A DNA stretch of 64,000 bases from positions 1 to 64,000 of the forward strand of contig CANIWM010000025.1 in the NCBI GenBank assembly GCA_947471505.1. Direction: 5' to 3'. Shown in pieces: positions 32,055 through 61,020 of the stretch. This DNA is from Chthoniobacteraceae bacterium (GTDB taxonomy: Bacteria > Verrucomicrobiota > Verrucomicrobiia > Chthoniobacterales > Chthoniobacteraceae). Below the pieces are notes generated by a model. It was not told where the DNA came from, did not search any database, and saw nothing but the letters and a program-made list of their open reading frames with translations. Numbering within the stretch: position 1 is the stretch's first letter; every line of letters starts with the position of its first letter. The translations under genes and the position numbers were made by a program.

Positions 32055-32060
32055 CCAGGG

Positions 32061-32141
32061 AGGGGGGCCGTCCCGGCCCCCTGAGACGCGGTGCGTCTGC
32101 CCAGACATCCCTGCTTCAAGGGGCCGGGACGGCCCCTCTAC
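32061..32141. repeat. REP-like inverted pair (GC family)
   Basis: Left hairpin GGGGGCCG-TCC-CGGCCCCC (32063-32081), small inner hairpin AGACGC-GGT-GCGTCT, then right hairpin GGGGCCG-GGA-CGGCCCC (32120-32136) followed by TCTAC, that is, GTAG in inverted orientation. The layout matches elements at 60011-60114 and 60741-60829 although the stem bases differ. Confidence 0.8.
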
Positions 32142-59844: not shown

Positions 59845-60010
59845 GGAGCGATAGTTTGGAGTGAGACCGACCCAAACTAAGCGCATCTCTCCATACCGCG
59901 TCCCGTCTTTCGTATCTGAACAATCCCCGCACAAAGTTAAAGGGGTGTGGTTAAAAGTGGAAAAGTGGAAAGGCGGGCAGACGTTGGCGCACGGACGGGA
60001 TCCGCATCAA

Positions 60011-60114
60011 GGAGGGGGAACGTCTCGTTCCCCTGAACCACGAAGTGGTTCCCGAGCTGCTCGCAGGTTAAGGGAGGCGCTTCGCGCTTCAGGGGAACGG
60101 GACGTTCCCCCTCC
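60011..60114. repeat. REP-like inverted pair (GC family), GGAG type
   Basis: GGAG (60011-60014) and hairpin GGGGAACG-TCT-CGTTCCCC (60015-60033); inner hairpin GAACCAC-GAA-GTGGTTC; then GGGGAACG-GGA-CGTTCCCC (60092-60110) and CTCC (60111-60114), the inverted GGAG. In the repeat-rich spacer 59845-61020, which contains no gene I can support; a 370-aa plus ORF through it is composed of repeat translation. Confidence 0.9.
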
Positions 60115-60227
60115 TTGGGGGCTTTCGCCCTTTTGGTACCGTTCCCGTTTGCAATCCACTTTTAATCACACCCAAGTTAAAGCCCGCAGTCGTCGCGCCG
60201 ACGCACGAGTGGCAGCACCGCCCCGCA

Positions 60228-60500: not shown

Positions 60501-60740
60501 ACTCACCGCCCAACAGAGAAAATCGCGTAATTTACGCAAAAAGTGGTCAAAAAGCACCAGCCCCACCACCCGCGCCGCGTTCCATGGAACAAAACTACCC
60601 CGAAAGCCCACCCGCAAAAAGTAGCTCGCCAGTCCCTTGGTGGCTAAAAAGACATCGGCAAAGCCGCATAAAGAAATGTGAGAAAAAGAAGATCGCTAAG
60701 CAACTGATACCAACTTCCATAAATAAAGAGACGGGAGAAA

Positions 60741-60829
60741 GTAGCGGGGCCGTCTCGGCCCCGTCGCGACACGCAGTGTCGCAGCGCGGCAAGCGCCTTC
60801 AGCGCTCGGGGGCGGGACGCCCCCGCTAC
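60741..60829. repeat. REP-like inverted pair (GC family), GTAG type
   Basis: GTAG (60741-60744) with hairpin CGGGGCCG-TCT-CGGCCCCG (60745-60763); inner hairpin GCGACAC-GCA-GTGTCGC; then CGGGGGCG-GGA-CGCCCCCG (60807-60825) and CTAC (60826-60829). Stem differs from 60011-60114 but pairing, loop bases and layout are the same. The rest of 60830-61020 shows nothing. Confidence 0.9.
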
Positions 60830-61020
60830 GATTGGTTCCTCTCCGCAGTCTCGTTATTTCAGGAAGATGGGATGACCGGCAATTTTCCACGTCTGCGCAA
60901 AGTAGTCAGCGACTTCAGTCGGCACGGCGCGGCAGGAAGTGAAGCCGTCCGATCTCCGAGCGAATCGTGTTAGGAAAAAGCGTAGCTTTTTTTGGGCTTG
61001 GTCGGTTTGGTGCCGTCGCT

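Follow-up and report, generated by a model that had tools for sequence, protein, structure and literature searches.

A GTAG/GGAG-tagged REPIN family with covarying stems in a Chthoniobacteraceae genome, and RAYT transposases apparently resident in frame inside housekeeping genes

The 64,000-nucleotide stretch of DNA analysed here (the window, contig C25 of the genome) holds at positions 60741-60829 a hairpin element that the initial annotation had taken to be REP-like, raising the question of what kind of repeat this is and which enzyme may have spread it. The element opens with a REP unit on the plus strand (60741-60762; GTAG followed by a CGGGGCCG-TCT-CGGCCCCG hairpin), continues with a spacer of 45 bases (60763-60807) in which sequence and DNA folding place two smaller hairpins, CGACAC-GCA-GTGTCG and GCGC...GCGC, and closes with a unit on the minus strand (60808-60829; GTAG followed by a CGGGGGCG-TCC-CGCCCCCG hairpin), the two halves being unlike each other (CGGGGCCG-TCT against CGGGGGCG-TCC). 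As single-stranded DNA it folded at -39.7 kcal/mol (z -6.9), with one long arm as the best fold and the two-hairpin form as an alternative. A second element at 60011-60114 (GGAG with GGGGAACG-TCT and GGGGAACG-TCC, tags outermost) shares with it the interval between a putative esterase gene (end 59844) and a DNA methylase gene (start 62180), and a third lies at 32059-32141 (GGAG with GGGGGCCG-TCC, GTAG with AGGGGCCG-TCC). All three consist of two facing hairpins with a GTAG or GGAG tag outside and a TCT or TCC loop; sequence and pattern matches bore out the layout first described for them, with stems that differ and remain paired, and gave the same coordinates for the first two elements and a start of 32059, not 32061, for the third. 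The best explanation as a whole is that 60741-60829 is a REPIN, one of about 40 doublets that together with single units form a GTAG/GGAG-tagged REP family, and we put the probability of this at roughly 0.88.

When the target was compared with the whole genome (6.07 Mb in 153 contigs, 96.7% complete), blastn returned 54 matches, and the pattern GKAG-N-GGGNNN-G-TCY-C-NNNCCC (GKAGNGGGNNNGTCYCNNNCCC) was found exactly 98 times, 50 forward and 48 reverse, with 0 and 0 matches for a control in which the pattern was reversed; the family thus goes far beyond the three copies seen in the window. The units carried GTAG (56) or GGAG (42) tags, the latter also found in REPs flanking RAYT genes, and TCC (65) or TCT (33) loops. 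Pairing of units gave 39 head-to-head doublets of 64-104 bp, that is, REPINs (78/98 units, the remainder being single), with preferred lengths of 87-89 and 103-104 bp. The REPIN family is mostly extragenic: among 22 doublets with sequenced flanks, 16 have no long open frame running across them, and a codon-position test was passed by none. The same REP family was present in the congeners G001, G005, G006 and G007 and was undetected in five others. No doublet joined two TCT units (0/39, all being mixed or double TCC), though TCT makes up about a third of units. One borderline copy, a GTAG-tagged REPIN on contig C12 (G000:C12:59828-59908; L089 1501-1581), lies in frame within an open frame of 1006 aa, to which it would add about 30 residues.

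That the stems covary was examined at the free stem triplets of the 98 units, where 291 of 294 cells pair, compared with a mean of 189 and a maximum of 218 in 2000 shuffles. Since three stem types account for 94/98 units, these unit counts are not independent, and it could be supposed that the covariation records a few subfamilies copied many times and not continuing selection. A second set of 20 distinct repeats, collected by similarity and not by pattern, still gave 95% paired cells, double changes at 3/8 pairs, 20 cells with a double change (shuffle mean 6.5) and a covariation score of 0.330 against 0.087 in shuffled alignments, with 0/500 shuffles reaching the observed value and every slid register scoring far lower. 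At the outermost pair of this set CG (8), GC (5), AT (3), TA (1) and unpaired bases (3) were seen, so that all four Watson-Crick types occur, a variety that is hard to obtain otherwise; stem pairs 5 and 6 likewise change on both sides, and rarer paired types (GAC/GTC, AGC/GCT) exist. Copying of a few subfamilies is therefore an unlikely source of the whole pattern. The covariation claimed at the outset holds up genome-wide, and only its wording, that structure and not sequence is selected, went too far: pairing is kept, but the tag, the GGG base and the G-TCY-C apex hardly vary, and covariation is confined to about three of the eight stem pairs. Such a near-invariant tag and apex with limited covariation agrees with a transposase recognising the folded single strand, and not with an RNA role.

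Mobilisation by a RAYT had been suggested from the tag-hairpin layout, together with the remark that no such gene lies in the window, and a profile search of the genome indeed gave no Y1/RAYT match on C25; five RAYTs of one profile were found on other contigs. Two of these are flanked by REPINs of their own: the C100 gene has a tandem array of GGAG-CGGGGCTT-TCCT REPINs upstream (period about 121 bp; L014 1-1450) and one REPIN downstream, and the C97 gene has GGAG-CGGCGGCA-TTCC REPINs on both sides. Two further RAYTs lie inside genes, and around the stand-alone copy on C1 no REP was seen. None of the RAYTs found in the 96.7% complete assembly is flanked by REPs of the G-TCY-C family. In the sister species G007, a RAYT at C85:5105-5728 bears complete GGAG-AGGGGCCG-TCC REPINs of this family on both sides, and the REP family thus belongs to a RAYT of that species, to which the nearest enzymes of the present genome are only 50-51% identical. 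Either this genome has lost the cognate gene, or the gene falls within the missing 3%, or a different RAYT acts in trans; with 153 contigs at 96.7% completeness, it could simply be absent from the data. The suggested mobilisation by a RAYT is thus only part of the picture: a RAYT carrying this family was found in a congener and none in this genome, where many copies have moved inside a different element (below). Three IS200-type TnpA genes (L009-L011) were set aside as not REP-linked. A distant RAYT-like gene on C77 (L062 1060-1640; HYH, Y..HRN) has GTAG hairpins of another REP family just downstream.

The different element was recognised around the second REPIN, where a MITE-like unit at 59943-60173 (TIR GGGTGTGRTTAAAAGTGGAW; TIR search, paired-unit reading and flank comparison) ends in inverted copies of GGGTGTGATTAAAAGTGGAA and is bordered by a perfect 9-bp target duplication, AAGTTAAAG, at 59934-59942 and 60174-60182. 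Allowing up to 3 mismatches, the TIR GGGTGTGATTAAAAGTGGAA matched the genome 129 times (control, 0). We read 26 distinct paired units, the window's 59934-60182 and 25 others (L003, L006, L027, L075, L292-L321), of which 11 hold the REPIN family of the window and the others different inner palindromes, among them those of the REPIN family that flanks the C97 RAYT; flanking 9-mers were alike at 7/9 or more positions in 14 of the 26 (shuffled mean 0.6, maximum 5). Two units (223 and 186 bp, with two REP units each) are absent from the sister species G006, whose empty sites have the duplicated bases once. TIRs, 9-bp target duplications and empty sites are the features of a MITE that is mobilised by a DDE-type enzyme, which would imply a different transposase acting in trans; among 30 loci read, no TIR pair 0.7-2.7 kb apart was present as a parent element. 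Either the REPIN is a passenger of the TIR element or the TIR element is a favoured REPIN target. As a vehicle it is not expected to need a RAYT, and since REPINs can ride in this independent element, their spread need not depend on one. Di Nocera et al. (PMC3733652) described similar REP nesting in long palindromes in other species; we have found no earlier account of REPINs riding inside an independent TIR element.

This anatomy, with the failure to find a cognate RAYT in the genome, is also what would be expected if the REPs were merely the inner part of a DDE-type MITE with no role for a RAYT. Against this, the TIRs enclose several different REPIN families, among them the one flanking the C97 RAYT, the G007 RAYT is flanked by the same REP family as the window's elements, and the window REPINs at 32059 and 60741 fall outside the TIR element, the target being placed in a different imperfect palindrome (60709-60876), recognised by blastn of its flanks and 96% matched to a copy on contig C3; we regard this reading as improbable. 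Selection as RNA, for transcription terminators or mRNA-stabilising hairpins, would account for strong hairpins with compensatory changes and for the lack of a long open frame across 16/22 doublets, but is very improbable: the doublets are nearly symmetrical and keep a conserved tag beyond the stem, copies occur in either orientation, there is no T run, one copy falls within a long open reading frame, and presence across the genus is patchy.

For the REPIN reading, the following mechanism is the most likely. Each half of the doublet would fold during a single-stranded DNA phase, for example on the lagging strand, and its tag and hairpin loop would be recognised in trans by a RAYT, a HuH single-strand transposase, which would cut the hairpin element and join it elsewhere; published biochemistry describes RAYTs as acting on single-strand hairpins via tag and loop (PMC8266576). 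Stem bases would be free to drift while pairing holds, with tag and apex fixed. A RAYT probably made copies of this family in the present genome, and some copies also spread as passengers of the larger TIR element with its 9-bp target duplications, as the empty sites show for two loci; no REPIN lying outside that element was found to have an empty site.

The family extends the REP/REPIN kind, already known from Verrucomicrobia, by one new member and, on its own, by one further genome, with the GGAG tag variant and the nesting in a MITE as extras. As in the REPINs of Pseudomonas fluorescens SBW25 (PMC3116915), inverted REP doublets with a spacer occur in tens to hundreds of copies and RAYTs have cognate REPINs beside the gene, whereas here GGAG makes up 42/98 tags, stem covariation is seen within the family, extra hairpins occupy the spacer, and a TIR element surrounds some of the copies. 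Di Nocera et al. (2013, PMC3733652) described GTAG REP families from Opitutus terrae and other PVC bacteria that likewise form GTAG-tagged dimers in Verrucomicrobia, with hairpins in the spacer, dimers contained in longer palindromes and REPs inside genes; that paper does not mention GGAG tags, shows no target duplications or empty sites and does not describe transposase genes inside housekeeping genes. The TIR element resembles MITEs in general (PMC3733652) in being short and non-coding with TIRs and a target duplication, and differs from them in that its centre is held by interchangeable REPIN families. TnpA_REP and the REPtron (PMC8266576; PMC6006769) share with the RAYTs found here a HuH-and-Tyr protein of about 200 aa, REP flanks and recognition by tag and loop, whereas many PVC copies are embedded within housekeeping proteins.

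The two RAYTs lying inside genes of this genome were read in frame within clpB (G000:C42:4637-7804; L108/L173) and alaS (G000:C1:54792-58181; L110/L193), and both genes also bear a RAYT in G008 (L096 and L172, respectively) and G004 (L103/L167 and L107). Pfam placed ClpB or AlaRS domains on both sides of the inserts, and the NCBI equivalog models were passed despite the insert, ClpB with 1320 bits (cut-off 1232) and AlaS with 711 (cut-off 457); no AlaS match other than this insert-bearing one was found in the genome. In clpB the insert occupies the same linker in the three congeners, which probably lies before the second ATPase domain, and in AlaS it appears to fall in a stretch that varies, also in length, in all congeners. 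The sister species G006 has ClpB (L176) and AlaS without a RAYT, their host parts being 96% (ClpB) and 94% (AlaS) identical, and alaS without a RAYT was seen at L194-L199. Where dS could be measured, dN/dS of the alaS and clpB inserts was about 0.19-0.44. Simple vertical inheritance of the inserts is doubtful, as their synonymous divergence exceeded that of the host in all measurable pairs (1.71 versus 0.585 for alaS of G000 and G008); dS is near saturation, and codon bias in highly expressed hosts may account for part of the difference. With that caveat, the excess speaks more for recurrent insertion at one site than for plain descent.

To see how far this extends, 387 genomes of the phylum, mostly metagenome assemblies, were surveyed. 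At least 55 of roughly 150 RAYT matches listed lie in frames of 450-2175 aa, stand-alone RAYT genes being about 190-300 aa, and 30 long RAYT proteins pass the curated cut-off of a host, representing 17 families: ClpB, AlaS, LeuS, ValS, ThrS, PriA, XseA, RecF, IspG, MetH, CarB, HypF, MvaD, NspC, HsdR, a RarA-like ATPase and aspartase, with the RecF and aspartase cases being end fusions and not insertions. One IspG case comes from G334, whose assembly consists of one 5.7-Mb contig, and assembly error is thus not the explanation. Among 80 named loci about a third look embedded, and the range extends to Planctomycetota. The embedded RAYTs look functional as judged from their sequences, both histidines of the HuH motif and the catalytic tyrosine being kept in 84/86. 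They also appear to carry flanking REPs on both sides: the longest word shared up- and downstream had a median of 22 nt (control 9), resembling stand-alone copies, and a shared word of at least 15 nt was present in 68/86 compared with 2/83 in the control. Insertion sites are reused, for example in the LeuRS editing domain after 'ELPI.QVV', and in a tree of 152 RAYT domains the host-gene labels clustered strongly, the 18 groups requiring 20 changes where shuffled labels required 52 on average, the tree having been made by a fast method and trusted for label clustering only. In-frame residence of RAYTs inside housekeeping genes is thus well supported by the predicted proteins and very probably real; among open-licence papers, no report of embedded RAYTs was found. 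L097 was rejected as an embedded RAYT, its long upstream frame having no family match.

Inteins and homing endonucleases reside in frame at recurrent sites of essential genes with a patchy presence, and the embedded RAYTs are like them in all three respects; they differ in that no splicing domain was seen and that the insert is a REP-flanked HuH transposase. RAYT units may occupy recurrent tolerant sites, with a separate RAYT lineage at each; a frameshift or nonsense change in the embedded transposase would then break an essential protein, and the host's own selection would keep the transposase frame open. We lean slightly towards the joint reading that REP-flanked RAYTs lie in frame in housekeeping genes of Verrucomicrobiota and neighbouring phyla, selected with the host and persisting like inteins but without splicing. 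RAYTs were described by Bertels and Rainey in 2011 as single-copy and seemingly unable to move themselves, their persistence being unexplained and their upkeep ascribed either to addiction or to a host function (PMC3116915). Persistence via the selection on a host gene is a candidate answer to this question of RAYT extinction, for which we hold the odds to be even, and a transposase as part of an alanyl- or leucyl-tRNA synthetase would be a concrete, testable form of addiction. A survey in 2018 reports having dropped family members of unexpected length, which it took for fusions or annotation errors (PMC6006769); the long members seen here are abundant, host-specific and in frame, and the long 'fusion' RAYTs removed from surveys may be real. 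DNA methylases were seen among further RAYT hosts (loci L113-L172 and L212-L291; Verrucomicrobiota and Planctomycetota), and the RAYT-bearing alaS also has a tandem-repeat insert (THPAGQTPSDSPVG).
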